Below are positions 15,531-30,839 of a stretch of DNA of 64,000 nucleotides, one piece after another. The DNA comes from Paracoccaceae bacterium (lineage in GTDB: Bacteria > Pseudomonadota > Alphaproteobacteria > Rhodobacterales > Rhodobacteraceae). Below the pieces are notes generated by a model. It did not search any database. It was not told the origin of the DNA and was given only the letters and a program-made list of their open reading frames with translations. Position numbers and translations under genes: made by a program. The DNA lies in NCBI GenBank assembly GCA_020446815.1, contig JAGRDY010000034.1, positions 43,618 through 107,617 on the forward strand. Reading direction: 5' to 3'. How positions within the stretch are numbered: position 1 is the stretch's first letter; each line of letters begins with the position of its first letter.

Positions 15531-15546
15531 AGCCGGAGAATTGACC

Positions 15547-15945: not shown

Positions 15946-17367
15946 TCAGGGTGGGGTTGCCGGGCCGCCCGCGACGGCCCTGGGGCGGGCGTGGGCGGTA
16001 TCTTCATACGGTGCCTGGCCAAGATAACGGCTGACCCGCTGGCCGGTATCGAGCGCGGCATCAGCGCAAGCACCGACCGACACGCCGCACAGGTAATTTC
16101 CGGTGACGAACACCCCGGGTGTTTCGCACAACGCCTGCTTCAGCCGTGCCACCAGGCGGGAGTGGCCGGGTTCGAACTGCGGCAAGCCTCTGGGCCAATG
16201 CCGGATCCGCGCCACGACCGGCGCGCCATCTGCGCCTATGAGATCGGCAAACTCGGCGCGCACGATGTCGATCAGCTCCTGCGCCGGAAGGCGCGCGTGA
16301 TCCGGGGCGCGGGCGCCGCCCACATAGGCACTGATCGCCACATGATCGGCGGGCGCGCGCCCGGCGAACATTGTCGAACAGAACAGCGCCCCGTTGACGA
16401 CGCGCGCTTCACAGCCGGGTGTCAGATAACCGAGCCCGTTCAGCGGATGCGCGATCCGGTCGCGCCGGTAGCCGAGAAAGATCACCGCGAGCGGCGGCGC
16501 GGCGATGCGCGCGCATTCGTCTGCGGCGCGCGGGGCGAGAGGCGCCAGCAGATGCGCCGCGACATGAGGTTGCGTGGCGATGATCACCGCCCTCGCGTGA
16601 AGGTGCCCCCGGGGCCCGGCGTCGATGACGAAACCCTGCCGCGCGCGGTCGATCCGGCGCACCGGGACGGCGGTTTTTACCGCGCCGCCCAGGCTCAGTG
16701 CAAGCGCGCGGGGCAACGTGCCGATACCGTCGCGCCATGACGACAGCTGCCGCGCGGGCATTCTGGCGCCCGTCAGGCGGGCACGCAGGATCGCCGCGAT
16801 GAGCGATCCATGCGCGTGCTCCATCGCGGCCAGCGCGGGCATCACGAAGCCAAGCTCGGTGCGCGCGGCGTCGCCTGCGAACATCCCCGCGACCAGCGGG
16901 TCGAAAACCCGTTCGGCGAATTCGGCGCCGAACCGGCGCCGGGCGAATTCCGCGACGGTTTCGCCGGCGCCCCGATCACCGCGCGGCTGCCACAATTCGG
17001 CGGCCAGTCGCGCCCGTCCGGCCAGCGACAGATAGCCCGATGTCAGGAACGCCAGCGGATGAAGGCCGATTCCCGCCAGCCGCCCGCCTTTCGTCAGGAA
17101 CCGCTTGCGGACATTCGGGCCAAGATCGGTGCGCGCGCGGCCCAGCCCGAGGCTTTCCGCCAGATATGCGATTCCCGCCATGGAATGATTGACCGTGCTG
17201 GGGCCATGTTCCATCAGAAAGCCGCCGATCCGCTCGGAAATCGCGTTTCCTCCGGGGCACACCTGCCGTTCCAGCACCAGCACATCGTGGCCCGCCTCGC
17301 GCAGCGCGTGGGCGGCGGTCAGGCCCGACACGCCGCCACCGATGATGGCCGCGTCAACCGAGGTCAT
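15946..17367 (-). CDS. HemY-type protoporphyrinogen/coproporphyrinogen oxidase-like flavoprotein
   Basis: A protein of 473 residues and the last gene of the NXR-type operon. It starts TSVDAAIIGGGVSGLTAAHA, a GxGxxG dinucleotide-binding loop for FAD, followed by LVLERQ and GGNAISERIGGFLMEHGPST, the pattern of HemY-like amine-oxidase-family flavoproteins. The C-terminal FVTGNYLCGVSVGACADAAL is the second FAD-contacting segment. HemY enzymes oxidise a porphyrinogen to a porphyrin. Members of this order usually rely on HemJ, as I recall, so a HemY homologue here suggests a dedicated tetrapyrrole step. The start overlaps the radical SAM stop by 14 bases. The phytoene desaturase-like superfamily is an alternative. 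Confidence 0.75.
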   Translation of the reverse strand: MTSVDAAIIGGGVSGLTAAHALREAGHDVLVLERQVCPGGNAISERIGGFLMEHGPSTVNHSMAGIAYLAESLGLGRARTDLGPNVRKRFLTKGGRLAGIGLHPLAFLTSGYLSLAGRARLAAELWQPRGDRGAGETVAEFARRRFGAEFAERVFDPLVAGMFAGDAARTELGFVMPALAAMEHAHGSLIAAILRARLTGARMPARQLSSWRDGIGTLPRALALSLGGAVKTAVPVRRIDRARQGFVIDAGPRGHLHARAVIIATQPHVAAHLLAPLAPRAADECARIAAPPLAVIFLGYRRDRIAHPLNGLGYLTPGCEARVVNGALFCSTMFAGRAPADHVAISAYVGGARAPDHARLPAQELIDIVRAEFADLIGADGAPVVARIRHWPRGLPQFEPGHSRLVARLKQALCETPGVFVTGNYLCGVSVGACADAALDTGQRVSRYLGQAPYEDTAHARPRAVAGGPATPP

Positions 17368-18652
17368 GGCGTCTTTCCGGCCGGGTCCGCGCAGCCTCCG
17401 CGCCCGGCCGCGGCGGCGCAGCGGAGCCAAAGCGGCTGCGCGCCAGAACCTCCAGATGTTCGGTGGTTACCGTGTCGCAGCCTAGCGCGCCCGCATAGGC
17501 CTCGGCCCGTTGGCGAACGAATCGGCGCACGAAGGGCGGCACGCGGGCCAATCGCGTCCGCGCCGTCTCGGTCCAGGTGACGGCGGGGGCATCGGTGCGT
17601 GGCATGTGCGGGATCGCGCCGGTTGCGTCGGGCTGGTAGGCGCAGAGCGGATCTTCGCCCATCATGTCGCCCGTCGCGGCGAAAGGGCGGGCGCGGCAGC
17701 CGCCACAGATCCTGGCGTATTCACAAAGTCCGCAGCGGCCGGTGAGCCGCGGCGCGCGCAGCCGTTCGAACACCGGCGCGTCTTGCCAGATGTCGGCAAA
17801 GCCGCGTTCGCGGATCGAACCGGCGCTGATTTCCATGTAGGGGCAGGGGGTGATCTCGCCCGAAGGCGTGACGCGGGCGTATCGGGTGCCGGCAAGGCAT
17901 CCGCCGGCCTCGTAGCCATGCGCCAGCGTGATTGGCCAGCCAGCATCAAGTTCGATCGCCATACGCTTGAAATGCGGCGCACATTTCGCGCGGATCATGA
18001 TCCCCTCCGCGGCGCGCGCCGCGCGGGTCAGATGGCGCAGGGTGCGGTCGTATCCGGCGCGGCTGATGTTGCTGACATAACGCCCCCGCCCGGTACAGAC
18101 CAGGAAGAACACGTTGAGCGCGATGGCCCCGATCGATTGTGCGAAGGCGATCATCGCATCCAGTTCCCCCGCGGTGTCGTCGGTGACGGTGAAATGGATC
18201 TGAAAGCCAAGGCCGCCGCGCCGGCAGGCGTCGATCCCCGCCATGGTGCGTCCGAAGCTGCCGGGCAGCCCGCGAAAGGCGTCGTGCCGGCCGGGGTCGA
18301 GCGAATCGACGCTGATCCCGACCCCGACCACTCCGGCACCTTTCAGCGCCGCAACCCGTCTGTCGGTCAGCGCCATGCCATTGGTGCCGACCACCACCAT
18401 CAGCCCGAGGCCGGCGGCATGGGCGGCGATCTGCTCGATATCGGGGCGCAAAAGCGGCTCGCCGCCGCTCAGCACCAGCATGGTTTCGTCGCTGAGCGCC
18501 GCGATGTCGCCGATCAGCGCGCAGACTTCGCGGGTGGTCAGTTCTTGGGGATCGGCATCGCGCCGTTTGCCCGCGTCGAGATAGCAATGGGCGCAGTCGA
18601 GATTGCAGCGCCGGGTCAGGTTCAGGGCAACAAGATAGGGCGCGCCGACCAT
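17354..18652 (-). CDS. Radical SAM protein (NirJ/AhbD-like) with C-terminal PCP_red domain
   Basis: A protein of 432 residues. The cluster-binding C-x3-C-x2-C is at Cys16, Cys20 and Cys23 (TRRCNLDCAHCYLD). The SAM core follows, including VLSGGEPLLRPDI. A C-terminal SPASM-like region carries CPYMEI and the cysteine group CGLCEYARICGGCRA. This combination is that of the NirJ/AhbC/AhbD class, which acts on heme d1 or alternative heme precursors. About residues 358-403 form an added PCP_red-type module (VTWTETARTRLARVPPFVRR, GCDTVTTEHLEVL), otherwise known from dark protochlorophyllide reductase. It lies 5 bases after the USP/PCP_red gene. Substrate is not known; a porphyrin is the leading idea. 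Confidence 0.85.
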   Translation of the reverse strand: MVGAPYLVALNLTRRCNLDCAHCYLDAGKRRDADPQELTTREVCALIGDIAALSDETMLVLSGGEPLLRPDIEQIAAHAAGLGLMVVVGTNGMALTDRRVAALKGAGVVGVGISVDSLDPGRHDAFRGLPGSFGRTMAGIDACRRGGLGFQIHFTVTDDTAGELDAMIAFAQSIGAIALNVFFLVCTGRGRYVSNISRAGYDRTLRHLTRAARAAEGIMIRAKCAPHFKRMAIELDAGWPITLAHGYEAGGCLAGTRYARVTPSGEITPCPYMEISAGSIRERGFADIWQDAPVFERLRAPRLTGRCGLCEYARICGGCRARPFAATGDMMGEDPLCAYQPDATGAIPHMPRTDAPAVTWTETARTRLARVPPFVRRFVRQRAEAYAGALGCDTVTTEHLEVLARSRFGSAAPPRPGAEAARTRPERRHDLG

Positions 18653-18657
18653 GGCCC

Positions 18658-20307
18658 TCACTCCGCGTCGGCTGGCGGCACGGGGTGGCCGCCACGCTGC
18701 ATCCTGCGTTCCATCCTTTGCCGGGATGCGGTGATCACGGTTTCGAGCAGCGCGGGCGTTATCTCGGCGGCGGCCGTTTCGGCGGCCTCCGCCTCGGTCT
18801 GCCGGCGGATGGTGGCGCGCACCATTTCGGGCACGCGCGCCAGCCGCGCCAGGGCCGCGGCGTTCCATCGGGCCACCGGGGCTGCGGCGTCAAGAAACGG
18901 GCGAACATGCGCGGGCAATACCCGCTCGGCGCCGTCACGGCGCGCGCGTTTCTCGGCCCGCAGCCGGATCGCCGCAACCATCGCGGCGCCGCCGCCATTG
19001 CGCGCCAGCGTCTCGGCCTCGCGGGACCAGACCACCGGCGTTTCCCGGCGGGAATCGCCGCCGGAATGCGGGCACAGTTTCCGTGTCGCCCGCTCGATCA
19101 GATCGCAGGTGACGACGGTGTGGCCGCTTTCCTGCGCGAAACGCTGAACGGCAAGCCGGATCATGGCGCGCGCCATTTGCGGTGCCCGCGCGAGCCGGGC
19201 CTCGGCCTCTTGCGTCCAGTGCATGGTATGTTCGGCCAGTGCGTCGGCCGGCGGCACGAAGGCGCAAGCGCCAAGCCAGACATGACAAGGCGCGCCGCGC
19301 AGCAGGTTTTCGGCGTTGCCGCCGATGTCCAGTTGGTCATCGGCATGAATGCCGGTCCGGCCGATCAGCAGAAGACCGGCGCGGGCCTTCGCCAGATAGG
19401 CGGCGATGGCGGCAAATGGCTTGCCGTCAAGCAATTTCGTGGTCAGCGGCACGCCTTCGTCCCTGGCGATCCGCTCGGCCAGCGCCAGATGCGCGCGGTA
19501 GATCTTTGCCAGTCCGTCGTCGATGATCTCTTCGTGCAGCCTTTCCTGTTCCTTGAAACGGAATACCTTGCCGGCCTCGTCGCTGAGCACCCCGGCGATG
19601 CGGTTGAAGGCGACGTAGTGGAAATAGGGGTCGTATGCGGCGACGGCATGGACCGGAAGCGCAAAGGCGCGCCCCAGCCGCAACGCGGTTTTCAGCGCCC
19701 CGTAGCTGCGAGGCGAGCCATCGACAGCGGCGACCAATGGCCCGGCCGCGATCGCGCGGGCCGGATCGCGGATCACCAGAAGGTCGATGCCCGCCCGCCG
19801 CGCCACCCGTTCGCAGACCGAACCAACACTGGCCCCCGGTGTCGCACCAAGCCCCTGCGCACCCATCGCCAGCAGATCGAACCCGTCGATGGCGGCCGCC
19901 GCGACGATCTGGCGATAGTTCTTGCCTTCGGGGCTGAGCCGGCCATAGGCGATGCCGGCAGCCTCGCAGGCCGCGCCGGCTTTGTCATGGTAGCTGTCGG
20001 AAATGATGCCGAGCCCGCGTGTGATCAGGCTGTCATGCACCGCGCGCTGATGCTCGATACCCTCTTCGGTGCGGTAGCGTTCGGGCAGGCCGCCTTCCAT
20101 TTGCCTGAACCGGCGGTCGTGCAGGCGCGCGGCATAGGCGTGAATGCCGGTGATCGCGCCGCCCGATACACCGGCCAGGCGCAGCGCCTCCTCCAGCGCC
20201 CGTGCCGCGTGATCCGAGGCATCAAGCGCCACGAGGATCTGCCGCGGCAGCGCCGCGCGAGCCGCGCCCCGCGTGGTGTCAGGCATTGCCTCAACCGTGC
20301 CCTTCAT
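18658..20307 (-). CDS. Tandem universal stress protein fused to three PCP_red-like modules
   Basis: A protein of 549 residues. Two universal-stress domains occupy about 23-180 (QILVALDASDHAARALEEAL) and 190-348 (LVAAVDGSPRSYGALKTALR). Three PCP_red-like modules follow: about 363-410 (HWTQEAEARLARAPQMARAM, HTVVTCDLIERATRKL), a degenerate one at about 427-472, and about 481-525 (RLARVPEMVRATIRRQTEAE). The domain order is not one I know as a standard family. The ATG at 20307 has GGAAGGAA upstream and overlaps the gamma-subunit gene by 17 bases. An ATG at 20286 is also possible. It is co-expressed with a radical SAM protein that carries the same module. Confidence 0.8.
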   Translation of the reverse strand: MKGTVEAMPDTTRGAARAALPRQILVALDASDHAARALEEALRLAGVSGGAITGIHAYAARLHDRRFRQMEGGLPERYRTEEGIEHQRAVHDSLITRGLGIISDSYHDKAGAACEAAGIAYGRLSPEGKNYRQIVAAAAIDGFDLLAMGAQGLGATPGASVGSVCERVARRAGIDLLVIRDPARAIAAGPLVAAVDGSPRSYGALKTALRLGRAFALPVHAVAAYDPYFHYVAFNRIAGVLSDEAGKVFRFKEQERLHEEIIDDGLAKIYRAHLALAERIARDEGVPLTTKLLDGKPFAAIAAYLAKARAGLLLIGRTGIHADDQLDIGGNAENLLRGAPCHVWLGACAFVPPADALAEHTMHWTQEAEARLARAPQMARAMIRLAVQRFAQESGHTVVTCDLIERATRKLCPHSGGDSRRETPVVWSREAETLARNGGGAAMVAAIRLRAEKRARRDGAERVLPAHVRPFLDAAAPVARWNAAALARLARVPEMVRATIRRQTEAEAAETAAAEITPALLETVITASRQRMERRMQRGGHPVPPADAE

Positions 20308-21322
20308 CGCGGTTTCCTTCCTTGCTCGATGCGTTTCGGCGCAGCGCGCGAAGCCCCCCAAGCTGGGCTGCGAGCACCCCTGCCGCGGCAACCACCGGCG
20401 CCCAGTAAAGGGCGTTGCCCACCGGCTGTTCGAGACTCGTGAAATACCAGGTCGACACGGCTTTTTCTCCGCCGCGGTGCAGCCGCGCACCGTCCCAGAC
20501 GGCAAATGCCATCGGCAGCGTCATTCCGGGCGCAAAGGTGAAACCGCCCTGTTCGCGGGGCAGGGTGATCACCACCCGCCAGCGACCTTGCGCGGGCGCG
20601 CCGTTGCCGTTTCCGTCCTGTGCCGGGGCATCGGCGGGGGTCAGCGTACCGAACCCTTCCGCGCCAAGTTTCTCGACCGGGGTGCGGGCCTGCAGGGCGG
20701 TGTCGCTCAACAGGCTGCCCGCCGCGGCAGAGGTCAGATAGATGCGATCATCGCCATAGTCGCCGGACCCGGCGATCTCGCCCGCCGGCCGCCCCGAAAA
20801 GGGGTACCAATCGTCGATCATGTCGGGATGGCGCTGCGACACATCGTTGCCCCGGCCGAACTGCCAGTCGGCCTTCCACTGGTAGATCGTCACCGGCTTG
20901 CCCGGCTCTCCCATGGCGAAATAGGGGATGCCCGCACCCGGATCGGCGGGAAACTCCACCGCCACCGCATCGCGGAAATCGGCGACATCAGTCAATTCGG
21001 TGTTGGCCTTCTCATCCTCCCATTCGATCAGCAGCGCCAGACGGTCGGCATCATAAAGCGCGCGCACCGTCAGCGCGGTGACCCCGGCCTCGTAAAGGCG
21101 CGGCTTGACCACGGCCTGCGGCGCCATCGGCACCGGCAGGGTATCGGCGCCGGCCCAAGCGGCGTCATCCGGCGCCTCGGGCACACGGTCGACCGATTTT
21201 GCCAGCAGCGTCGCCTTTTCCTGCGCCGCGGCGCGCCTTGTACCCAGCAGCGCCGCCGCACCCGCGGCGAGTGGCGCGAGCAGGAAGCTGCGGCGCAGCA
21301 GTCTGATGTCACGAAGGCTCAT
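20291..21322 (-). CDS. nxrC: NXR-type gamma subunit, heme b-binding (ethylbenzene dehydrogenase-like)
   Basis: A protein of 343 residues. The N-terminus has a twin-arginine-like motif (LLRRSFLLAPLAAGAAALLG). The body follows the DMSO-reductase-family type II gamma fold: ALYDADRLALLIEWEDEK, then FRDAVAVEFP, then IYQWKADWQ, close to where this family keeps its Met/Lys heme ligands. Known homologues are the gamma subunits of dimethylsulfide and ethylbenzene dehydrogenases and NxrC. A C-terminal hydrophobic segment (about 301-324, ALYWAPVVAAAGVLAAQL) followed by basic residues predicts a membrane anchor. Its ATG overlaps the chaperone stop (ATGA). The frame extends 21 codons upstream, but that part is basic and lacks a signal. 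Confidence 0.85.
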   Translation of the reverse strand: MSLRDIRLLRRSFLLAPLAAGAAALLGTRRAAAQEKATLLAKSVDRVPEAPDDAAWAGADTLPVPMAPQAVVKPRLYEAGVTALTVRALYDADRLALLIEWEDEKANTELTDVADFRDAVAVEFPADPGAGIPYFAMGEPGKPVTIYQWKADWQFGRGNDVSQRHPDMIDDWYPFSGRPAGEIAGSGDYGDDRIYLTSAAAGSLLSDTALQARTPVEKLGAEGFGTLTPADAPAQDGNGNGAPAQGRWRVVITLPREQGGFTFAPGMTLPMAFAVWDGARLHRGGEKAVSTWYFTSLEQPVGNALYWAPVVAAAGVLAAQLGGLRALRRNASSKEGNRDEGHG

Positions 21323-22113
21323 GCGTCGTTCCTCCTTTCGGCGGGGGCGCCGAACGCGACGGCCGGGCATGGCCCGCAGGCGCATTCGTCTTCATGCTCG
21401 GCCCCGCCTTCGTTGACGAAGGGATCATCGTGCCGCGCAATGCCTGCGGCCGCCAGTTCCTGTGCCAGGAAAGACTCCAGAAGTCCCGCCCAAGCGGCGA
21501 AAGGCCCGGGGTCCGGCCTTTGACGCAGGCGGCGGGCGAAGGAAAACGCCCAGAAACCCAGATGATCGGCCAGAAAGTTCCGCTGCGCCTTCCTGCAAAG
21601 CGCAAGCTGCCCGTGGCTGTGCCCTTTGCTGTCGGCCCAGGCCTGTTTCAGGCACAGGAATTCCATGAATTCCAACTCCACGGCGATGTGATCGGGGCGG
21701 TCGTGAAGATCTTCGGCCAGCGCCAGACCGAAAGCGCGGTAAAAGCCCGCGGCATCGGCCAGCGTCTGGGTCTTTTCGAATATATGGGCCTGGCCGTATT
21801 CGCTGCCGTAAGGCGGGCAATCCTTGGAAAGGGCATGGCCGAACACCGCCAGATGCGCGCGTTTCAGCGCCAGGTCACTGTGCCTGCCGGTCGCGGCGGC
21901 GGCCATCTCTGGGGCAAGCCGGAGGGCGCGCAGCGCCGCCTCGGCCAGCGGCCTCTGCCGCGCGAGGGCCTTTGCGCTGCCTGTCGCAGGGTCGCTGAAC
22001 GCCAGCGCGAGATAGCGGTAAAGCGCGGCGCGCGCCGCGGCGGGGCGCCCATCGGGCGCGGCACCCGCCGGTGCCGGCTCAGATCGAGTTGTAATGCTTG
22101 TCCGGGCGCTCAT
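21319..22113 (-). CDS. TorD/NarJ-like molybdoenzyme chaperone
   Basis: A 264-residue cytoplasmic protein of the TorD (DMSO reductase chaperone) family. Visible features are ALYRYLALAFSDPATG near the N-terminus and the conserved block DRPDHIAVELEFMEFLCLK. These proteins bind the Tat leader and the apo-catalytic subunit while the molybdenum cofactor is inserted. The partner here is the Mo-subunit at 23621. An unusual C-terminal tail contains a cysteine cluster (EDECACGPCP) that could bind a metal or Fe-S (inference). The start overlaps the beta-subunit stop by 35 bases. Confidence 0.85.
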   Translation of the reverse strand: MSARTSITTRSEPAPAGAAPDGRPAAARAALYRYLALAFSDPATGSAKALARQRPLAEAALRALRLAPEMAAAATGRHSDLALKRAHLAVFGHALSKDCPPYGSEYGQAHIFEKTQTLADAAGFYRAFGLALAEDLHDRPDHIAVELEFMEFLCLKQAWADSKGHSHGQLALCRKAQRNFLADHLGFWAFSFARRLRQRPDPGPFAAWAGLLESFLAQELAAAGIARHDDPFVNEGGAEHEDECACGPCPAVAFGAPAERRNDA

Positions 22114-23353
22114 AGCGCGGCTCCTCGACCGTGACGCGCGCGACCTCGCGGCCGTCCTGGCCGTAACCGATCACCGTGTCGTTGAAGATTTCCCATGGCT
22201 TGCCGTCCACCGTGCGTTCAAAGATCTTGTCGCCTTCCTCGATCTCGTAGCGAAAGACGATGGTCTGGCTGGCGCGGAAAAGCTGGAGGACCGCCATCAA
22301 TTCGCGCGACGGGAAGCTGTAGGCTGCGATCGCGTCATCGACACCGGGGCCGAACATCTGCCGCAGATAGGGGCGTGGCGCCCAGCGCGGCGGGATGTAA
22401 TAGCCATTGGGTTCGGTACCGAACTGCGGGTAAAGCGGCAGTGCCACCCGCGCCACCTTGACGAGGAAGTAAAGCGGGTTGGTGCGGTCCTCGGCCCAGC
22501 CACCCTGTTCGTCGATCGCCACCAGCCCCTGCATCCGTATCTTGCCCACGCAGGCCGCCATGCAGCGGGTTTCCATCGGCTGGCCATCGGTCAGCGGGTC
22601 CGTGCCCTCGATGCGCGGATAGCAGGCGATGCATTTTTCGCTGACCCGCGTGGTGGAGCGGAACATCGGTTTCTTGTAAGGGCATTGCGCCACGCATTTG
22701 CGGTAGCCCCGGCAGCGCTTCTGGTCGATCAGCACGATGCCGTCCTCGGGCCGCTTGTAGATGGCGCCGCGCGGACAGGCGGCGAGGCAGGCAGGATAGG
22801 TGCAGTGGTTGCAAAGCCTTTGCAGGTAAAAGAACCAGGTGCCGTGCTCGGGCAGTTCCGCCGATTCCATCGACAGCGTGTCGCGGTGGTTTTTCGCTCC
22901 GGCGGCGGTGTCCTCGTAGAAATTCGGCGACGACCATTCCTGTTCGCTGGGTTCGTAGCCAAGGGCTACATCCTTGCGCTGCGGCGCCTTGTGCGCGGCC
23001 TCGAAAATGGTCATGCCGCCGAAGCTTCCGTAGGGAGCGGCCGGATCGCTGCCATCGCCGGCCGCCCATGCCGCGTTTCGCCCCGCTGCCTGATGCGCGC
23101 CGTCCAGCGCCTTGAGAAGCTTCACGTCCCACGATTGCGGATAGCCGCCGAAAGGCTTGGTCTCGACGTTGTTCCACCACATGTATTCCTGCCCCTTCGA
23201 GAAGGTCCAGGTGGACTTGCAGGCCATCGTGCAGGTCTGGCAGGCGATGCAGCGGTTGATGTTGAAGACGAAGGCGAACTGCCGGTCGGGATGTGCCTCG
23301 GCATGGGGGTAATACATGCGCCGCCCAAGCTGCCAGTTGAAGACGTCAGGCAT
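22079..23353 (-). CDS. nxrB: NXR-type Fe-S (beta) subunit
   Basis: A protein of 424 residues with four ferredoxin-type cysteine groups: Cys35/38/41/45, Cys181/184/189/193, Cys214/220/224 and Cys241/244/264/268. The third has Tyr217 in the place of a fourth Cys, the arrangement that gives a [3Fe-4S] cluster in NarH-like subunits. Long identities to the NxrB of Nitrospira and anammox bacteria can be recalled, such as QFAFVFNINRCIACQTC, KGQEYMWWNNVETKP, NHCTYPACLAACP and YPRIEGTDPLTDG. It would carry electrons from the Mo subunit to the gamma heme and be co-exported with the Tat-bearing alpha subunit. ATG 23353 gives the family start MPDVFNWQLG, and it overlaps the 92-residue gene by 8 bases. 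Confidence 0.93.
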   Translation of the reverse strand: MPDVFNWQLGRRMYYPHAEAHPDRQFAFVFNINRCIACQTCTMACKSTWTFSKGQEYMWWNNVETKPFGGYPQSWDVKLLKALDGAHQAAGRNAAWAAGDGSDPAAPYGSFGGMTIFEAAHKAPQRKDVALGYEPSEQEWSSPNFYEDTAAGAKNHRDTLSMESAELPEHGTWFFYLQRLCNHCTYPACLAACPRGAIYKRPEDGIVLIDQKRCRGYRKCVAQCPYKKPMFRSTTRVSEKCIACYPRIEGTDPLTDGQPMETRCMAACVGKIRMQGLVAIDEQGGWAEDRTNPLYFLVKVARVALPLYPQFGTEPNGYYIPPRWAPRPYLRQMFGPGVDDAIAAYSFPSRELMAVLQLFRASQTIVFRYEIEEGDKIFERTVDGKPWEIFNDTVIGYGQDGREVARVTVEEPRYERPDKHYNSI

Positions 23354-23624
23354 CGCCGGTTCCTCCCTCATCCTTGCGCGCCGCCGGTCGCCAGGCAGAG
23401 CCGACGCGGGCGATCAGTTCGCGCACATGGGGCTCGCCCCGGTCTAGATAGATTCGGTGCGTGGCCCGGAAACGGGGGTGGGTGAACAGGGCCATCAACT
23501 GGCGCTCTGACCATCCCATGAGCAGGAATTCCTCGATCACGCATTCGGCCATCAGATCGGGATCGCCTTCTGGCAGGGGCACTGCGACAAATTCCATCGG
23601 GTCGTTTTCGGCGGCAGGTTTCAT
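23346..23624 (-). CDS. Small hypothetical protein between alpha and beta subunits
   Basis: A 92-residue soluble protein, acidic in its first half (EFVAVPLPEGDPDLMAECVI) and basic towards the end. LMGWSERQLMALFTHPRF and YLDRGEPHVRELIARVG read as amphipathic helices. There is no signal peptide or cysteine motif. Its ATG overlaps the alpha-subunit stop (ATGA) and its end overlaps the beta start, so it is embedded in the translational chain of the enzyme. I know no function. An assembly role in the cytoplasm is inference from position. Confidence 0.8.
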   Translation of the reverse strand: MKPAAENDPMEFVAVPLPEGDPDLMAECVIEEFLLMGWSERQLMALFTHPRFRATHRIYLDRGEPHVRELIARVGSAWRPAARKDEGGTGDA

Positions 23625-26600
23625 GAGGATTTCTCCACCCTGGTCAGATCGCCGGCCAGATAGCGCGCCATCGCCGCGTCTTCGTGGCCAGGCGAAAAGC
23701 CGGTTGTTACCGGCGCCCAGACGCCTTTGCCGCCGGGTCCGCCCGCCTCGGCGCGTTCGATCCTGACCAGCGTCTCCTTGGGAACGGTGTTGACGGCGTG
23801 GTTGTCTTCGTCAAAGCCGAACACGAACGACATTTCGGTCGCCTTCTTGTGAAACAGGCTGTCGGTCTGGTGCATGATCGGCGCCCAGCCGCGGGTGATG
23901 CTCTGGTGGCTGCCGTAGCGGAAATTCGACTGATAGCCGGTGTCGGCGGCCAGCGCGCGGCCGTCCTCGCGGCTCTCATGGGCCTTCACGGTGCGTTCCG
24001 AGGCGATCCAGGCCGAGTGTTTGGTCATCACCACGTTATAGGGATAGGCGGGGTTGTACTTGACCCGGGTCAGCAGGCGGAACGCCTTGGCCCGGGCGGG
24101 GTCGTCGGACCAGCCCGCGAAGGGCCGGTCGGCGGGGTTGGCATCGACATGGATGTAATCGCCATCCTCGATGCCCATGTCCTTGGCCGCATCGGGGTTC
24201 ATGTGTACCTGCCAGTCGGCAACGCCGGGCTGGCGCCGGTCGCGGCGGTAGGGGTCGCCGAAATTGGTGCTCCAGATCCAGTTCCAGTCGACCGTGGCCC
24301 AGGACGAATGGGTGGTATGCCGGCTTTTCGGCGTCATCGCGTAGAAGGTGAAGCCGTCGCGCCACAGCGGGTTCTTCGTGGCCCTGACCTTTGCCCATGG
24401 CATCTTGTTGTTGGCGATGGCGCGCAGGTCTGCATCGACCGGTTCAGCCTGAAGCATTTCCGGGGTCACGCCGTAATTTTGCGGCCGAATGTAGGGGCTC
24501 GACGAGACGATGACATTGGGCAGATAGGGCGTCGCCTCGGGCGCCTCGCGATGCGAGACCAGATTTTCACCGTATTCGATCGCTTCGGGGATGTCAGCAT
24601 AGGCGTTGAGCCGCCCGGTATCCGTGTAGAACGGGATCGAATCGTGCACCTGTTCATAGAATGATACCCGCGGGTAGGTGCGAAACAGCATCAGGGCGGC
24701 ACCCGGCTCGCCATATTTTCCGGCCATGATATCCGCCACCTTGTAGCCTTTCGTGGTGGTGGAATTATCAAGCACCCGTTGCAGATAGACGCGGGACTTG
24801 CCATCCAGGATGAACTTCCAGTGGTCGCGGAAGCGTGTATCTTCCGTCAATTCGCCCAGCTTTTGGGACACCAGCGCGAAGATCATGCCGTCATCCTTGC
24901 TGTCGTAGAGCGGCTTGATCCCCGTGCCACCCCAGAATTGCAAAAACGGGTTGGAACAGGATGCGCCGCATTCGAGATCCGCGAATTCCATCCACGAATT
25001 GGCGGGCAGGATCACATCGGCATATTCCGCCGATCCGGTCCATTCGACCTGCTGATCGACGATCAGGTCGATCTTCGGGTTGACGTTGGTGATGAGGTGA
25101 TAGGCCCATTTGGCCTGGTTGATCAGGTTGGCGTTGCAGTACCACATCGCCTTGGTGGGCGTCGGCAGATGGCTGTGGCCAGTGAAGTTCCTGCGCCCCG
25201 CGCCGGGCGTGTCGACGATCATCGGCCGGTCGCCGAAGCCCCAGTAGCTCAACTCCTCGGCGTGGCTGTATTCGCGGATATTGCCGGGGCCGATGCTGCC
25301 GGTCTCGTCCAGCACCTGATTGAACGGGTCTTCCTTGACCCAGGCGCCTGCGCCCGCGCCAGACCAGGGCGAGGCCTGCATCAGCGCGCCCTTGTAGTTG
25401 CCCGCCCAGGTATGGGCGCCGCTGCCGGGAATGCCGATCGAGCCGATCAGCATAAGCGGCAGCATGGTGGCGCGGTTGTGCAGTGTGGCGTGATAGTAAT
25501 GGTTGATGCCCTCGCCGTAATGGATCGCCACGGGGTAGGATTCGCGCGGCTTGCCGATGAAATCGGGGTCCCAGAAGCGGCGGCCGAAATCCTCGACGAT
25601 GCGTTCGAGCAGGTTTTCCGGGGCGCCGGTGATCTCGGCGGTGGTGGCAAGGTCGTAATCGGCCAGATGTTCGCGGTACATCGACCAGACGGTCATCGCC
25701 TCGACCGCGCCGCCATCGGCGAGCGTCACGCGCCCCTTCCAGTCCAGCGCCGGGTCGATGCCGGCCTCGGCAACATGTTTGCCCACATCGTCGCGGCTGA
25801 CGGGCTGCGGCTGGCCGGTTCGGGCGTCGTGGACCAGAAAATCACCCAGCCGGCCGCGCTGTTCGGCGGTCAGCCCCTGAATCTTGAAGCTCGGGCCGGC
25901 GCTGATGTCCTTGTCGGTGTAACCCGCGATCACCTCCTGGGGTTTCAGGCGTTTGAGTGTATCGGTGCGTACAAGGGTCGGGAAATCGGTGAATTGCTTG
26001 ACGAAATCGGCGTCATACCAGCCGCGTTCCATCAATTCGCGGGTGGCATATAGGAAGATCGAGGTGTCCGACAGGCCGGGGCGCACCGAGATCCAGTAAT
26101 CCGCCTTGGTGGCCGAGGGGCTGTATTCGGGCGCGATCACCACGCTGCGCGCGCCGCGTTCCATCAGCTCGGTCAGCCAGTGCGCATCGGGCATCTTGTT
26201 TTCGATCAGGTTCTTGCCGACCTGCACGACGAACTTGGTGAAGCGCAGGTCGTTGAGGTCGATGTCGGAGGTCTGAAGCCCGTGCACGAAGGGCTGGCCC
26301 GGCGCCTGATCGCCGCGCCAGGTGTATTCGGACCATTCGCGCCCGCCCTTGGCCTGATCCGGGCCGACGCCGCGCACATGCGCATCGACCAGTCCCAGAA
26401 GGTTGCACATGCGAAACAGGCCGAACTTGCCGATCACACCGTGGATCGGCAGCGACGACCCCAGTTTGATGGTGCGGGTGCCGGCCTCTTCCCAATGGGC
26501 CAGCATTTCCTCCGGATAGCCATCCTTGTCGATCAGCCGGGCGCGGCCTTGCTCGCCGCTGTAGGTTGTGGCGACCGCCATCAGGCCGCGGGCGAGATAG

Positions 26601-27175
26601 GCCGTCGCCTCGTCCCAGCTCATCCGGGTAAAGGTGTCGGTGCCTCGGCTGTCGAACTTGTAGGTGCTGCGCAGTTCGGGGGAGTCGGAAAGCGACGGAA
26701 ATCCGGCATCCGCCCAGGCCTTCCAGCCATCGCGGATCATCGGCCCCTTGGCGCGGTAGGGGCCGTAGACCCGCCGGTGCATGGTATAACCCTTCAGGCA
26801 CATGCGCGGGTTCCAGGCATAGGTGGCCTTGTTGCCGTAAAGATCGGTGTATTTCTGGTAGTCGTAATTCTGTTCCAGCCGTGTCACGATACCGTTGCGC
26901 ACGAACGCCTTGACCCGGCACATGTGGGTGTCGTTGGGGGCGCAGATATAGGTGAAGCTGCGGTCATAGGCGTATTGATCGCGGTAGACCTGTTCCCAGT
27001 CGCGGTCGGGATAATACTCAAGCGGATTGTCGATGCGCACGACCGGCGTCAGCGCGCGCCCCTCGAACAGAGGCTGGGCGCCAAGACGCCCGAGCGCATC
27101 GGCCCCCGCAACCGCGCCCACCACCGCCGCGCCACCGCGCAGCACCTGGCGTCTGCTGAATGTCTTTCTGGTCAT
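23621..27175 (-). CDS. nxrA: NXR-type periplasmic Mo-bisMGD catalytic (alpha) subunit
   Basis: A protein of 1184 residues with a Tat leader (FSRRQVLRGGAAVVGAVAGA), so the enzyme is periplasmic. The N-terminal Fe-S region has Cys78, His84, Cys86 and Cys126. Asp289 in YTWRGDQAPGQP aligns by eye with the molybdenum-ligand Asp of NarG (type II DMSO reductase family). Many stretches match what I recall of anammox and Nitrospira NxrA: YDRSFTYICAPNDTHMCRVK, NPRMCLKGYTMHRRVYGPYR, GKNLIENKMPDAHW, HYGEGINHYYHATL and NPAYPYNVVMTKHSAWI. The reaction would be nitrite to nitrate, or the reverse. Periplasmic nitrate reductase and chlorate/selenate-type enzymes are the alternatives. It heads the enzyme genes, 37 bases after the cytochrome gene. 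Confidence 0.92.
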   Translation of the reverse strand: MTRKTFSRRQVLRGGAAVVGAVAGADALGRLGAQPLFEGRALTPVVRIDNPLEYYPDRDWEQVYRDQYAYDRSFTYICAPNDTHMCRVKAFVRNGIVTRLEQNYDYQKYTDLYGNKATYAWNPRMCLKGYTMHRRVYGPYRAKGPMIRDGWKAWADAGFPSLSDSPELRSTYKFDSRGTDTFTRMSWDEATAYLARGLMAVATTYSGEQGRARLIDKDGYPEEMLAHWEEAGTRTIKLGSSLPIHGVIGKFGLFRMCNLLGLVDAHVRGVGPDQAKGGREWSEYTWRGDQAPGQPFVHGLQTSDIDLNDLRFTKFVVQVGKNLIENKMPDAHWLTELMERGARSVVIAPEYSPSATKADYWISVRPGLSDTSIFLYATRELMERGWYDADFVKQFTDFPTLVRTDTLKRLKPQEVIAGYTDKDISAGPSFKIQGLTAEQRGRLGDFLVHDARTGQPQPVSRDDVGKHVAEAGIDPALDWKGRVTLADGGAVEAMTVWSMYREHLADYDLATTAEITGAPENLLERIVEDFGRRFWDPDFIGKPRESYPVAIHYGEGINHYYHATLHNRATMLPLMLIGSIGIPGSGAHTWAGNYKGALMQASPWSGAGAGAWVKEDPFNQVLDETGSIGPGNIREYSHAEELSYWGFGDRPMIVDTPGAGRRNFTGHSHLPTPTKAMWYCNANLINQAKWAYHLITNVNPKIDLIVDQQVEWTGSAEYADVILPANSWMEFADLECGASCSNPFLQFWGGTGIKPLYDSKDDGMIFALVSQKLGELTEDTRFRDHWKFILDGKSRVYLQRVLDNSTTTKGYKVADIMAGKYGEPGAALMLFRTYPRVSFYEQVHDSIPFYTDTGRLNAYADIPEAIEYGENLVSHREAPEATPYLPNVIVSSSPYIRPQNYGVTPEMLQAEPVDADLRAIANNKMPWAKVRATKNPLWRDGFTFYAMTPKSRHTTHSSWATVDWNWIWSTNFGDPYRRDRRQPGVADWQVHMNPDAAKDMGIEDGDYIHVDANPADRPFAGWSDDPARAKAFRLLTRVKYNPAYPYNVVMTKHSAWIASERTVKAHESREDGRALAADTGYQSNFRYGSHQSITRGWAPIMHQTDSLFHKKATEMSFVFGFDEDNHAVNTVPKETLVRIERAEAGGPGGKGVWAPVTTGFSPGHEDAAMARYLAGDLTRVEKSS

Positions 27176-27212
27176 GGCCTTCGGTCCCCGGATCGGTGTT
27201 TTCCTGCGGCGG

Positions 27213-27989
27213 TCATTCGGCGCGCGGCGTGTAGCCCGTTTCGCGATAGAGAAAGAGGATCACCTGCCACGCCTCGTCAGGCGTGAGGTCGTTGCTGTGC
27301 AGCGACGAGGCATTGGCATCGCCCGGTGCTGCGACCCAGCGCGGCATGGCGCTGTTGAACTGGTTCTGGATGCCGCCGACGGTCAGGCGCCAGTAGACAT
27401 AGGGCAGGGTCAGTTGGCCGATGGTACCCGCGTCCCGGAAATTGGCGGGCCGGATCGGATAGCGGAACCCTGCCGCCGCCGGCCCGGCGCCGTCGAGCCT
27501 TTCGCCGTGGCAGACCACGCAATTGGCGGTGTAAAGCGTCTTGCCGGCGGCGATGTCGCTGTCGCGCCAGTTGGCCGGCGCCGCGGCCCAGGGCGGCACG
27601 ACGATCCGTGCCAGTGTCGCTTCGCCCACCGTCGGGTGGCGCTGGAAAATCTCGACCGGCGGCGCATAGGTCGGGCGCACGCTGTCATAGGCCCACCATC
27701 CCGCCGCCGCCGGCAACAGCGCCAGCACTGCCAGGCGTTGCAGCTTCGGCCATCCGCCCTCGCCGGGGTGCGACAGGAAAAAGTTCCAGAACCGGCGGAT
27801 GCGGGTGTCCTCGAGCGTGATGTGAATGACGGTGCCCAGCACGATGAAACCCATGTAAAGCAGGATGACGCTATGCGGGATCACCGGGCGGACCGCCTTC
27901 AGCGCAACGAAAGCCGCGATGACGATCAGCGCCGCGCCGACGGGCAGCGGCAGCCATCGGTGGTTCGTTTTGCCGGATCCGGCGTTCAT
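27213..27989 (-). CDS. Membrane-anchored monoheme c-type cytochrome
   Basis: A protein of 258 residues. Three hydrophobic stretches in the first 150 residues (PVGAALIVIAAFVALKAV, VILLYMGFIVLGTVIHI, LAVLALLPAAAGWWAY) anchor a periplasmic domain. This carries one heme site, CVVCH (in LYTANCVVCHGERLDGAGPA), with a distal Met probably in the C-terminal part (NSAMPRW). It overlaps the diheme cytochrome stop (ATGA) and precedes the Mo subunit. It is a plausible acceptor for electrons from the gamma heme b, passing them to the diheme protein or the bd-like membrane protein (inference). Confidence 0.88.
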   Translation of the reverse strand: MNAGSGKTNHRWLPLPVGAALIVIAAFVALKAVRPVIPHSVILLYMGFIVLGTVIHITLEDTRIRRFWNFFLSHPGEGGWPKLQRLAVLALLPAAAGWWAYDSVRPTYAPPVEIFQRHPTVGEATLARIVVPPWAAAPANWRDSDIAAGKTLYTANCVVCHGERLDGAGPAAAGFRYPIRPANFRDAGTIGQLTLPYVYWRLTVGGIQNQFNSAMPRWVAAPGDANASSLHSNDLTPDEAWQVILFLYRETGYTPRAE

Positions 27990-28816
27990 TGCCCGCCCTC
28001 CCGTGTGGTCAGATATTCGGTGAGTGTGAAAAGCTGCGTGGCGGTCAGCCTCTCGCCGTAGTCGTCGGGCATCGTGTCGGCGGGAAATTCCGTTCGCTGA
28101 ATGGCGCGGGGATCGACGATCGATTGCATCACATAACGATCCACCGCCATGCCCTGTGCATCGGCGGCGGCGCGCAGTTGCGCTGCCACGAACGGCGGGC
28201 CGACCAGCACTTCGCCCGGCTCCATGCTGTGACAGCCGAGACAATCGAAGGCCTCCAGCATCGCGGCGGGGTCGGTGGGGACCGTCTCAGGCGACGCGGC
28301 CGCCGGGGCGGCGCTGGCATCCGACGGCGCCGGCAGGCTTGCCAGCGTCACGCTCGGCGTGCCGCCAAGCGATTCGAGATAGGCGACCACCGCCGCAACC
28401 TCGGCCCGGTTCAGCTTGGCCGGTGCCTTGAGCGAGGCCGGCATGATGTTGGAAAATCCCTCGACCAGATAGGCGCCGGGGGTATAGAGCGCCTGCGTCA
28501 GATAGCCGATCAACGTGTCGGGCCCGCCCGCGACGCCATTGGCGCGCCGCTCGGCCACGCCGGCAAGGTTGGGGCCGCGGCCCTGACCCTTGATGCCCTG
28601 GCCCGGCTCGATCGTGTGGCAACTCAGGCAGCCGCGTTCACGCACGATGGCCTGTCCGACCACCGCCAGTTCCGCCGGGGTCATGGTGGTGGCGATCTCG
28701 CGCGTCTTGGGCGGATCCCAGCGGGTCTGGGGAATCCAGTTGGCGAACCAGACGAAGAAGCCCAGCACCAAGAGCGCCGGCAGCGTCGCCGTGCCGTATG
28801 TCGTCAGCGCCCTCAT
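27986..28816 (-). CDS. Membrane-anchored diheme c-type cytochrome
   Basis: A protein of 276 residues. A single N-terminal membrane helix (LPALLVLGFFVWFANWI) is followed by two cytochrome c domains with heme motifs CLSCH (in RERGCLSCHTIEPGQG) and CLGCH (in FDCLGCHSMEPGE). The domains are separated by an Ala/Pro-rich linker. Each has a candidate distal Met (SNIMPASL and DTMPDDYGE). Start and stop both overlap neighbours by ATGA. It would be a periplasm-facing electron carrier between the NXR-type enzyme and the membrane oxidase-like protein. Confidence 0.9.
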   Translation of the reverse strand: MRALTTYGTATLPALLVLGFFVWFANWIPQTRWDPPKTREIATTMTPAELAVVGQAIVRERGCLSCHTIEPGQGIKGQGRGPNLAGVAERRANGVAGGPDTLIGYLTQALYTPGAYLVEGFSNIMPASLKAPAKLNRAEVAAVVAYLESLGGTPSVTLASLPAPSDASAAPAAASPETVPTDPAAMLEAFDCLGCHSMEPGEVLVGPPFVAAQLRAAADAQGMAVDRYVMQSIVDPRAIQRTEFPADTMPDDYGERLTATQLFTLTEYLTTREGGQ

Positions 28817-30588
28817 GCCGCCGCCTCCCCGGCCCTGTCGCCGAATGCGGGCAGCCCGGCGCGCCCGCCAAGCGCCGAGATCGCGAAGGCGACGCCCAGC
28901 AGCGCAAAGAAGATCAGGGTGATCGCCGTCACCACGATGGCCGCATCGCCAAGCGGCGGCAGGCCGGCGCCGGGCGAGGTGTCCTCGACCAGCCCGAAAA
29001 CATGCCAGTTGAGCCGCGCGCCGCTGCGCGCATAGCCCATCAGCCCCATCAGCCAGACGATCACGAAGGCGAGCAGGATGAGAATATACTGGCCGCGCCG
29101 CGGCATCGTGCCCCAGCGCACCGCCGCTTGGGTCCGGGCGCCTCTCAGAAGATAAAGATCGATCACGAAGGTGACCACGATGCCACCGATCAGCACGAGT
29201 ATCTGCCAGATCGAGGTCTTGATGCGCACATCTGCCGGGGCGAAATATCCGTATATCCCCAGCCCCAGGATAGTCGCCGCCATCAGCGCGATCAGCGCCC
29301 ATTCGATCCGGGTGCCGGTTGCCGCCCAGGCAACCACCGGCACCTTGCCCGCGCGCCGGTAAAGCAGATAGCTGACGTAAAGCACCACCAGGATCAGCGT
29401 GACCGCGATCATCTTCGGCGCCATCAGCCCCAGCGCGCCCAGGAGCGGATGGAACTGGCCGGTCGATTCCTCGATCGAGGCGGCCATCGAATGTGGCGTC
29501 GCCCAGACCATGAAACCGGCGATCAGCGCCACGTTGAAGGCCGGCACCAGGCGGCGCTGCGGCTCCGATCCCGGAATGCGCAACAGCCCCAGCCAGGCGT
29601 AATAGGCCGCGCCGATGAACAGGATCGCGATGACGATTGCCTGGATGATGAACAGCCACGACAGCACCCCGCCCATCAGCGTCACACCATAGGTGGCCGA
29701 ATAGGCAAACAGCTCGAAGCCGAAATAATAGCCCGCAAAGGGCAGGAACAGCATGGTGAAAAGCGCGATCAGGTTGCCGGTGTAGCCCATCCAGTCATAA
29801 AGCGCGCGCTCGGCCTCGGTACGCGCCGACAGGAACCGGTAGGCCGCATAGGCCGCGCACAAAAGCGCGCCGAAGGTGATATTGGCGATCAGCCGGTGCA
29901 CGTTCAGCGGCATCCAGCCGGGGTTCCAGATCGCGCCGTAAAGGCTGACCAGCGCACCGGCTTCGTCCACACCGCCCGGCGTCATCATGAAGGTCGCCCA
30001 GGCATTGGCGATGAACATCACGATGGTGCCGAATATGTTGAGCAGCAGCCCCAGCAGGATATGCGCCCATTTGCGGCGGCCCTGAAGGCGGTCCCAGGCG
30101 TAGTACCAGAAGTAGAGACAGAGGGTTTCGGCCACGAAGAACAACGGGTAGATTGCGAAGGTCGGCCCGAAGGTTTCGGTCATGTAGGCCATCAGGCGGG
30201 GATAGGCGGAAAACAGCAGCATCCCCAGCAACGCCCCCGAAATGGCGGTCAGCGAATAGGCCGCCGGCAGGAGCCGCGCCATCTCATGCGCCAGCCAGTC
30301 GTAGCGCGCCGCCCCGGCCGGGTCGCGGCGCGCCATTCGCCAGCCGAAAAACTCGATCGCCAGCGCGAACATCGGCACCGCCAGCACGAAGGCGGCGAAA
30401 TCGAGGTGCAGTTGCGCGGCAATCCAGACCGCCAGACGGCTGTCGATGAATGCTGGCTGTGCATAATCGGGGATCGGGACGCTTTGCGCCAGCGCCAGCG
30501 CCGGGGCGGCGGCGGTGGCAAGAAACGCGACCAGGGCGATGCCGGCCGCTGGCGGGGTTCTGCGATCCGGGGTGGCGCTACGTCGCAT
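28813..30588 (-). CDS. Cytochrome bd-like membrane protein with signal peptide
   Basis: A 591-residue polytopic protein with around 14 hydrophobic helices after a cleavable-looking leader (IALVAFLATAAAPALALAQS). The region HLDFAAFVLAVPMFALAIEF and later His-containing helices (NVHRLIANITFG) resemble the CydA-type heme-binding scaffold. I recall similar long bd-like proteins in Nitrospira, proposed as unusual terminal oxidases. No CydB-like partner gene is present. Its stop overlaps the diheme cytochrome start. A role as the electron sink (or quinone-linked reverse-flow module) of the nitrite system is inference. Confidence 0.78.
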   Translation of the reverse strand: MRRSATPDRRTPPAAGIALVAFLATAAAPALALAQSVPIPDYAQPAFIDSRLAVWIAAQLHLDFAAFVLAVPMFALAIEFFGWRMARRDPAGAARYDWLAHEMARLLPAAYSLTAISGALLGMLLFSAYPRLMAYMTETFGPTFAIYPLFFVAETLCLYFWYYAWDRLQGRRKWAHILLGLLLNIFGTIVMFIANAWATFMMTPGGVDEAGALVSLYGAIWNPGWMPLNVHRLIANITFGALLCAAYAAYRFLSARTEAERALYDWMGYTGNLIALFTMLFLPFAGYYFGFELFAYSATYGVTLMGGVLSWLFIIQAIVIAILFIGAAYYAWLGLLRIPGSEPQRRLVPAFNVALIAGFMVWATPHSMAASIEESTGQFHPLLGALGLMAPKMIAVTLILVVLYVSYLLYRRAGKVPVVAWAATGTRIEWALIALMAATILGLGIYGYFAPADVRIKTSIWQILVLIGGIVVTFVIDLYLLRGARTQAAVRWGTMPRRGQYILILLAFVIVWLMGLMGYARSGARLNWHVFGLVEDTSPGAGLPPLGDAAIVVTAITLIFFALLGVAFAISALGGRAGLPAFGDRAGEAAA

Positions 30589-30614
30589 CCTGTCGTTCCT
30601 TCGGCTTCCTCGCG

Positions 30615-30839
30615 CTACCGCGTCAGGCCGGCCTCTGCGGGTTTTTCGGCCCATAACCCATTGCACCCCACGCCACTCATCCGTTCCAGAAAGGCGCACA
30701 TCTCGGTCAGCCGACTGAAATGCCTGTCTTCGCCGGACTGGACATGCTGGACGTGGCCACGCCAGGCGGGGTCACCGTTTCGGCGCCGCTCGAGCCAGAT
30801 CCGGACAACGAAAGACGCCGCTTCCTGCCTGCGTCGCAT
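30615..30839 (-). CDS. Small hypothetical protein leading the NXR-type operon
   Basis: A 74-residue protein. The start ATG at 30839 has AGGAAAG 4 bases upstream. The core SFVVRIWLERRRNGDPAWRG followed by HVQHVQSGEDRHFSRLTEMC resembles a small beta-strand/helix module seen in several bacteria ahead of unrelated genes. No function is known to me. It ends 26 bases before the bd-like gene, so it is likely the first gene of the operon. Confidence 0.65.
   Translation of the reverse strand: MRRRQEAASFVVRIWLERRRNGDPAWRGHVQHVQSGEDRHFSRLTEMCAFLERMSGVGCNGLWAEKPAEAGLTR

Follow-up and report, generated by a model that had tools for sequence, protein, structure and literature searches.

A complete nitrite oxidoreductase-type module of the periplasmic Nitrospina/Nitrospira/anammox lineage in a Rhodobacteraceae chromosome

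A few specialised lineages are recognised as carrying out nitrite oxidation, and in surveys nitrite-oxidising bacteria (NOB) are counted through membership of these lineages or through their nxr sequences. The closest described relatives of the locus analysed here, an operon for a periplasmic nitrite oxidoreductase (NXR)-type complex in a 64,000-nucleotide stretch of a Rhodobacteraceae genome (the window; assembly GCA_020446815.1, contig JAGRDY010000034.1), are the NXR systems of Nitrospina, Nitrospira and the anammox organism Kuenenia; the papers on them are cited from excerpts. A set comprising a bd-like protein and cytochromes has been described as conserved among these three (PMC3578206), and the 40 genes of N. 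moscoviensis most transcribed on nitrite included those of a cluster for a bd-like protein, two cytochromes and an alternative NxrC (PMC6606698). In 2022, a periplasmic Nxr of the NOB/anammox group was reported in the proteobacterial metagenome-assembled genomes (MAGs) PRO3, PRO6, PRO11 and PRO12 from a nitritation-anammox reactor, its function being left open (PMC9306079).

The window carries a complete operon of this type on the minus strand, at 15946–30588. As in Nitrospina and Nitrospira (the latter compared through papers only), NxrABC, a TorD-like chaperone, a bd-like protein and a diheme and a monoheme cytochrome c are encoded, and the order of the bd-like/cytochrome unit and the active-site motifs are those of a Nitrospina MAG. 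Unlike in those systems, both units are in one gene run, NxrC is short and has no heme c, the operon has neither an alternative NxrC nor a cupredoxin, and genes for radical SAM, HemY-like, Usp and PAS-BTAD proteins are added; the host, moreover, belongs to Rhodobacteraceae, a family seldom listed among nitrite oxidisers, and has no RuBisCO match. With the Kuenenia enzyme (7b04) the locus shares a 57% identical NxrA, a full-length NxrB match, the same Mo and FS0 ligands in NxrA and heme ligands in NxrC, as well as the arrangement in one gene cluster (PMC3578206). However, Kuenenia NxrA branches outside the proteobacterial and Nitrospina clades, and the Kuenenia enzyme forms intracellular tubules with NXR-T (PMC8387239).

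With regard to the 2022 reactor genomes, the alpha subunit of isolate DTUPRO3 (L028, presumably PRO3 by its name) is 78% identical to that of the window, whereas the excerpted parts of that report describe no bd-like/cytochrome unit, regulator or Rhodobacteraceae carriers. We recognised no description of a Nitrospina-type NXR operon in Rhodobacterales in the openly licensed PMC literature searched, and the 'nxrAB' mentioned for Marivivens, another member of Rhodobacteraceae, may be an annotation of narGH (PMC11758582). A full module that has the NOB-type unit and a regulator in one run was not found in the literature searched, nor was a report of its occurrence in Rhodobacteraceae or of its spread over several classes. 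Gene composition, the ligands of NxrA and NxrC, the operon logic and the phylogeny can be read directly from the DNA. Judging from sequence, we consider it fairly probable that this is a complete periplasmic NXR module of the Nitrospina/Nitrospira/anammox lineage which would oxidise nitrite, feed cytochrome c oxidases and supplement a heterotrophic metabolism.

Catalytic subunits and the phylogeny of NxrA

The window NxrA aligned over its full length with Kuenenia NxrA (7b04_B; 1575.7 bits by phmmer, 57% identity), a score that excludes chance similarity. The next PDB family was of the perchlorate reductase type (161.7 bits), with NarG at about 100–106 bits, and the scores of EbdA, PcrA-type and NarG chains ranged over about 97–162 bits. 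Identity was 60% to the protein of the Nitrospina MAG and 58–63% to members of the Nitrospina-containing clade, vs 38–41% to a second periplasmic group and 23–27% to NarG, ClrA and a PcrA-like protein (for NarG about 25%, over part of the chain). Kuenenia NXR is about 60% identical to the NXR of NOB and comammox organisms and 40% to those of Nitrotoga and Hydrogenobaculum (PMC8387239); by this yardstick, the window NxrA falls in the NOB band.

According to alignment with the residues described for Kuenenia (PMC8387239; Kuenenia numbering), NxrA retains the Mo ligand Asp275, the substrate residue Asn70 and the ligands of the FS0 cluster, Cys67, Asp71, Cys75 and Cys115. Its Mo loop, YTWRGDQAPGQPFVHGLQT, and FS0 motif, CAPNDTHMC, have the same letters as in the Nitrospina MAG, and a twin-arginine motif (SRRQVL) near the N-terminus points, by motif only, to a twin-arginine (Tat) export signal. 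NxrB, judged by its overall match and not by single cysteines, aligned with residues 4–424 of 424 of Kuenenia NxrB (638.3 bits). NxrC matched 7b04_C with 71.4 bits; the heme ligands Met155 and Lys305 (PMC8387239) align to Met and Lys, and a motif scan found no CxxCH in this protein.

For comparison, 43 loci were fetched with patterns built from the window protein; this sample is biased to close relatives, and its carrier counts are not a measure of prevalence. In addition, many carriers are MAGs, so that absences are weak. Three trees of the alpha subunit were built, in which the Nitrospina MAG and Kuenenia represent the NOB/anammox clade (Nitrospira, Nitrotoga, SerA, DdhA and EbdA are not included by name). 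The first, of 58 rows, was built without the broken or short L046, L042, L034, L028 and L050 and the copies L051/L052; the second (36 rows) drops 22 further rows, including far outgroups; the third (24 rows) was also used for approximately unbiased (AU) tests. NarG and the PcrA-like protein are in the 58- and 24-row trees, and ClrA in the 58-row tree.

In the 58-row tree, the window NxrA lay within a 21-row proteobacterial clade (SH-aLRT 100), whose sister was a 13-row clade with Nitrospina, Methylomirabilis, Planctomycetota and others (99), the pair being supported at 100. The corresponding values in the 36-row tree were 100/100 for the 18-row clade of the window, 100/99 for the sister and 100/100 for the pair. 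Kuenenia NxrA branched next outside the pair, and beyond it the 58-row tree had a Pseudomonadota group of about 40% identity together with an archaeal plasmid protein, followed by the PcrA-like protein, ClrA and NarG. The placement of the window protein inside the periplasmic NXR group was the same in all three trees. It should be noted that some end branches of the 58-row tree are long (among them ClrA, two archaeal rows and PcrA-like) and that long branches meet in it, and that such branches also meet at the outgroup of the 24-row tree; the 36-row tree gave no warning of this kind, with three long rows flagged. Composition flags fell on Natronococcus and Halomicrobium in the 58-row tree and on Natronococcus and Kuenenia in the other two.

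Other identities of the alpha subunit were rejected by the trees and AU tests. Forcing nine proteobacterial carriers together with the 40% group and the archaeal protein cost 142 log units (p-AU 4.6e-64), and uniting them with the PcrA-like protein cost 104 (p-AU 3.1e-7). The Nitrotoga/Hydrogenobacter-type enzymes are likewise periplasmic Mo enzymes of the same superfamily, but they form a separate Pseudomonadota clade, an assignment made only from the identity of about 40%. NarGHI has the same Mo and Fe-S architecture; however, the window alpha lies outside the NarG clade and has a Tat motif, and the host has its own NarG. It is also outside the PcrA/ClrA clade. The sequence-only reading had set the Mo and Fe-S proteins beside periplasmic NXR and apart from NarGH, and the scores agree with it; the phylogenetic check that it proposed, run in part, put the alpha subunit nearer the Nitrospina clade than Kuenenia is, with no grouping with (per)chlorate enzymes.

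The alpha subunit might still be a (per)chlorate, selenate, dimethylsulfide or other enzyme of the type II dimethyl sulfoxide reductase family which merely resembles NXR. The superfamily is common to all of these, NCBIfam profiles matched the alpha subunit below cut-off only, and pNxr-like genes adjoining chlorite dismutase have been reported on soil contigs (PMC9751292). On the other hand, the trees, AU tests and identities all speak for NXR, and no chlorite dismutase was found among the scanned window proteins (the scan covered part of the window genes, and no genome-wide search was made for this enzyme). This explanation was already disfavoured and appears very improbable.

A separate, deep-branching NXR-like clade was observed in L039, L041, L044 and L047, records titled Planctomycetota, Planctomycetes or Brocadiaceae. 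Its members are about 50% identical to the window protein, branch outside Kuenenia NxrA and have a differing Mo loop (YTWHGDLGPGHPMVSGIQT).

Electron-transfer unit and gene content of the operon

The electron-transfer unit, formed by the bd-like protein and two cytochromes c, is the most telling part of the case. In the window it is joined head to tail with nxrA, followed by a small gene, nxrB, the chaperone gene and nxrC. In the Nitrospina MAG (G697), a locus on a different contig than its NXR (L103) encodes a bd-like protein, a diheme c, a monoheme c and then a 571-aa nxrC-matching protein with two heme-c motifs, which from its sequence is a predicted alternative NxrC; tblastn matches to the window proteins were, in that order, 38%, 28%, 31% and 23%. 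The order of the first three genes is the same in the window. Two further MAGs, G699 (titled Sulfuricaulis) and G700 (titled Proteobacteria), also carry this set, its last two genes being fused, and the bd-like homologues in all three genomes are 39–43% identical over most of their length. In G699 a homologue of the PAS-BTAD regulator precedes the bd-like gene (L104), and matches to NXR, radical SAM, HemY-like and Usp proteins are on the same contig, not in one run. Of 12 other genomes whose NXR-clade alphas are more distant, 9 yielded no bd-like protein; these genomes are MAG records by title, so that such absences are weak.

A predicted model of the window bd-like protein had eight Foldseek matches at E<=0.001, all of them cytochrome bd oxidase chains. 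The mean predicted local distance difference test (pLDDT) score was only 60.2, and this likeness, drawn from a poor model, suggests a relation at the fold level only. An oxidase and a quinone-linked path are the roles that have been put forward for such proteins in the excerpted literature.

We also noted a Nitrospina-type NXR together with the bd-like/cytochrome/alternative NxrC set in L024/L105 (Proteobacteria B5T3L11), where the set is on another contig than NXR, and in L030/L104 (Sulfuricaulis S40-5), where both are on the same contig. These MAGs, whose alphas branch with Nitrospina, may represent further unrecognised nitrite oxidisers or binning errors.

Eleven operon genes are located within 15946–30839 (Table 1), and all are open in the window by analysis of open reading frames (ORFs). 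They overlap by 4–35 bases at 8 of 10 junctions (starts as chosen), in line with the short overlaps noted in the sequence-only reading. The Tat-type Mo subunit, Fe-S subunit, heme-b gamma subunit, chaperone, two c-type cytochromes and bd-like protein that it listed on the minus strand are all present according to ORFs, Pfam, NCBIfam and motifs. It had placed twelve genes in this range; the twelfth, the PAS-BTAD regulator, was found only outside it, on the same strand and 340 bases upstream of the bd-like gene. We counted this gene with the module, which thus reaches past 30839, because 8 of 24 close-type loci also carry a regulator homologue.

Table 1. Genes of the NXR-type module in the window
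Feature	Coordinates	Strand	Evidence
PAS + winged-helix/BTAD transcriptional regulator	30929..32188	-	Pfam BTAD 2.8e-25, Trans_reg_C 1e-6, PAS 2.9e-5
bd-like (CydA-related) multi-helix membrane protein	28813..30588 (start chosen at 30588)	-	Pfam Cyt_bd_oxida_I 4.4e-14, residues 87-325 only
Diheme cytochrome c (CLSCH, CLGCH)	27986..28816	-	Pfam Cytochrom_C 1.3e-13, motifs
Monoheme cytochrome c (CVVCH)	27213..27989	-	Pfam Cytochrom_C 3.6e-7, motif
nxrA, Tat-type molybdopterin subunit, periplasmic NXR clade, 1184 aa	23621..27175	-	7b04_B match, trees, motifs
Helical protein of 92 aa without known family, encoded between nxrA and nxrB	23346..23624	-	Homologues in related loci
nxrB, iron-sulfur subunit	22079..23353	-	638.3 bits to 7b04_A (Kuenenia NxrB)
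TorD/NarJ-like maturation chaperone	21319..22113	-	TIGR03482 7.4e-26 (below curated cut-off); Pfam Nitrate_red_del 3.8e-20 (over cut-off)
nxrC, heme-b gamma subunit, twin-arginine-like start, no heme-c motif	20291..21322	-	TIGR03477 6.4e-41 (below curated cut-off)
Usp domains + PCP_red domains, two stretches each	18658..20307	-	Pfam Usp 8.1e-28, PCP_red 7e-19
Radical SAM/SPASM protein, AhbD/NirJ type, C-terminal PCP_red	17354..18652	-	TIGR04545 9.1e-94 (below curated cut-off); Pfam
HemY-like FAD protein, protoporphyrinogen oxidase family	15946..17367	-	TIGR00562 6.6e-63 (over cut-off)

The 92-aa gene was not named in the sequence-only reading. Homologues of its product were detected in 33 of the 43 fetched loci, including records titled Nitrospina, Methylomirabilis and Planctomycetota. 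The protein had no Pfam or NCBIfam match; its predicted model consisted of four helices (mean pLDDT 79.8) and had no fold match at E<=0.001. It is possibly an NXR-specific assembly factor.

Homologues of the Usp protein are present in most carrier loci. Both this protein and the adjacent radical SAM protein (17354–20307) have the PCP_red domain of light-independent protochlorophyllide reductase, an odd pairing beside a heme-related gene. Elsewhere in the window, an Autoinducer synthase family gene at 42302–42934 (Pfam Autoind_synth 5.9e-16) suggests quorum sensing in the host, and genes that by eye resemble modABC for molybdate transport lie on the same contig to the left of the window, about 33 kb from the operon (L101, 4568–7037; contig C21 of the host genome, G000).

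Distribution and genomic setting

A close-type alpha (75–91% identical in best segments) is carried by 24 of the 43 loci. Their record titles are Rhodobacteraceae, Roseovarius, Alphaproteobacteria, Rhizobiaceae, Hyphomicrobiaceae, Pseudorhodoplanes, Burkholderiales/Burkholderiaceae/Ideonella/Betaproteobacteria, Gammaproteobacteria and, in one case, Deltaproteobacteria, and the same operon layout is seen in MAGs with the titles Rhodobacteraceae, Hyphomicrobiaceae and Burkholderiales. The bd-like gene and both cytochrome genes are directly upstream of the alpha gene in 19 of the 20 close-type loci with upstream sequence (L008, L009, L028 and L042 start too late to show it). The eight carrier loci with a PAS-BTAD homologue are L037, L021, L046, L020, L016, L022, L010 and L013; L024 has one as well. 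Some carriers are MAGs whose isolate names resemble those from nitritation-anammox reactors, by name only: L019 (H5_PRO6), L028 (DTUPRO3) and L029 (PRO2).

The one exception among the 20 loci was Roseovarius sp. FR_34 (L046, about 9078–16978), in which nxrA is fragmented and the match to the regulator is split in two. This locus yielded no match to nxrB, nxrC, the chaperone, the bd-like protein or the cytochromes, and matches to the Usp, radical SAM and HemY-like proteins persist in more than one frame.

Within the family, an alpha match at E<=1e-100 was found in 2 of 295 genomes, host included, and within the genus the bd-like gene occurred in 1 of 22, which is the host itself. A sample of 398 genomes from the phylum had 21 alpha matches at E<=1e-100, and all except that of the host were 39–43% identical. 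On plasmids, the bd-like protein had two weak matches, and 60% identity was reached by no relative of the alpha subunit (0 of 223 records). Transposase-like genes (by eye) are located just upstream of the module's regulator in Rhodobacteraceae MAG_49 (L021, 743–2582) and might be a possible transfer vehicle.

In genus mates, the gene order right of the module is preserved up to yceD in five of six stretches, the sixth (L084) sharing only two genes. A fabH-like gene comes after yceD in all six and a plsX-like gene is visible in five (named by eye), whereas in the host yceD is followed by the NXR module; thus, synteny breaks at the module edge. A search of the left 43.7 kb of the host contig and of the window recovered none of the genes that follow yceD in one mate (L080). 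An exact empty site was sought in genus mates and none was obtained, so that no clean insertion can be drawn, and composition gave no foreign signal (GC 0.663 for the operon vs 0.658 and 0.629 for the flanks). The sporadic presence in family and genus together with the pattern at yceD suggests horizontal gain, as the sequence-only reading had implied, although repeated loss in mates may account for it instead.

Direction of the reaction and metabolism of the carriers

We propose that NxrA would oxidise nitrite to nitrate at its Mo site in the periplasm, with the protons of this reaction released outside. From the FS0 cluster, electrons would move by way of the clusters of NxrB and heme b of NxrC to the bd-like protein and both cytochromes c, and from there to cytochrome c oxidases of the host. 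The latter's genome (3.47 Mb, 99.98% complete) has three COX1-family matches, of which by eye one is of the aa3 and one of the cbb3 type. Because no RuBisCO was found in the host, nitrite would be a supplementary source of energy for a heterotroph; given the reversibility of NXRs, the enzyme may act in the direction of nitrate reduction when oxygen is lacking. The PAS-BTAD protein is the probable regulator of the operon, and for the radical SAM, HemY-like and Usp proteins a helper role in heme supply or assembly is probable.

Several observations weigh against this proposal. Unlike a nitrite-oxidising chemolithoautotroph, the host has no RuBisCO-family match in its genome (other carbon-fixation pathways were not tested), and it has narG on contig C36 (TIGR01580, over cut-off) beside genes that by eye are narH-, narK- and narI-like; narJ was not seen in the ORF list. 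For these reasons the host looks like a heterotrophic nitrate reducer and not like a classical nitrite oxidiser. The RuBisCO profile used, PF00016, also hits RuBisCO-like proteins (B. subtilis, whose matching protein we take to be RuBisCO-like, was positive in the control), and matches in carriers are candidates for CO2 fixation. Neither an alternative heme-c NxrC nor a cupredoxin was matched among the operon proteins, to which this search was confined, although in the excerpted literature both are described as accompanying genes and not as parts of NXR-ABC. In addition, presence in the genus is rare, and the L046 locus appears from its sequence to be a decayed copy of the module. The host also has no NapA, so that an NXR-type enzyme could fill the role of a periplasmic nitrate reductase.

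It is therefore possible that the complex works mainly as a periplasmic nitrate reductase, as Nap does elsewhere, with electrons flowing from the quinol pool to the bd-like protein and cytochromes, then to NxrC, NxrB and NxrA. NXRs are bidirectional, the sister periplasmic clade holds a characterised nitrate reductase (PMC6050957), and the authors of the reactor study left the direction open for such genes (PMC9306079). The host, apart from lacking a NapA match, otherwise resembles a nitrate-respiring heterotroph. Seven of its proteins matched PF00384: NarG, NxrA, NuoG, a TorA/BisC-type reductase, a formate dehydrogenase, a protein similar to formate dehydrogenases (below cut-off) and one without clear family. 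However, an extra nitrate reductase is not obviously needed, as a NarG match is present in 17 of 25 carriers (the host and 16 of the 24 others; 16 over cut-off, one partial and below it); NapA was found in 5 of the 25. A quinol-fed periplasmic nitrate reductase is not known to conserve energy beyond quinol formation, which also counts against this explanation. The bd-like proteins themselves point both ways, having been reported to be without known quinol-binding residues and yet to interact possibly with quinone (PMC3578206).

Of the 21 genus mates, 14 were searched for NarG and NapA; NapA was found in 0 of 14 at E<=1e-100 and NarG in 9, and none had the bd-like gene. A role of the module as a replacement of lost NapA was therefore rejected, which again argues against nitrate reduction as the main function. 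We regard the latter as the main rival to nitrite oxidation and, taken together, as rather unlikely.

The sporadic presence of the module and the decayed copy in Roseovarius FR_34 would also fit a horizontally passed remnant, or a system for conditional nitrite detoxification, that has no role in energy metabolism and is being lost. Nevertheless, all operon genes are open in the window and the NxrA and NxrC ligands that were checked are intact. In addition, the gene set is conserved across families, which argues for selection on the whole chain, and we find such an explanation improbable.

With nitrite oxidation retained as the preferred function, the other carriers are of interest. A RuBisCO-family match, in one case fragmentary, is present in 13 of the 25. 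Two genomes, those of L037 (a 'Rhizobiaceae' record that bears no MAG label) and L049, gave a full match but no NarG or NapA at the thresholds used, and they would be the best candidates for nitrite-based autotrophy. More broadly, we see the evidence as evenly balanced on whether Nitrospina-type nitrite oxidation, packed in one self-contained operon, has spread among Alpha-, Beta- and Gammaproteobacteria, making unrecognised nitrite oxidisers of ordinary heterotrophs and of some RuBisCO-bearing Rhodobacteraceae and 'Rhizobiaceae'.

The established hosts of periplasmic NXR are hard to cultivate and manipulate, whereas the group in which the present operon occurs is rich in cultivable, genetically tractable bacteria. 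The compact operon offers access by gene deletion to the role of the bd-like protein and to the direction of periplasmic NXR. If our proposal is true, the presence of a complete module of the NOB type in these and further proteobacteria would imply that the formation of nitrate has been missed or ascribed to the wrong organisms. The ability to make nitrate, with the direction of the reaction here putative, may be wider than thought.

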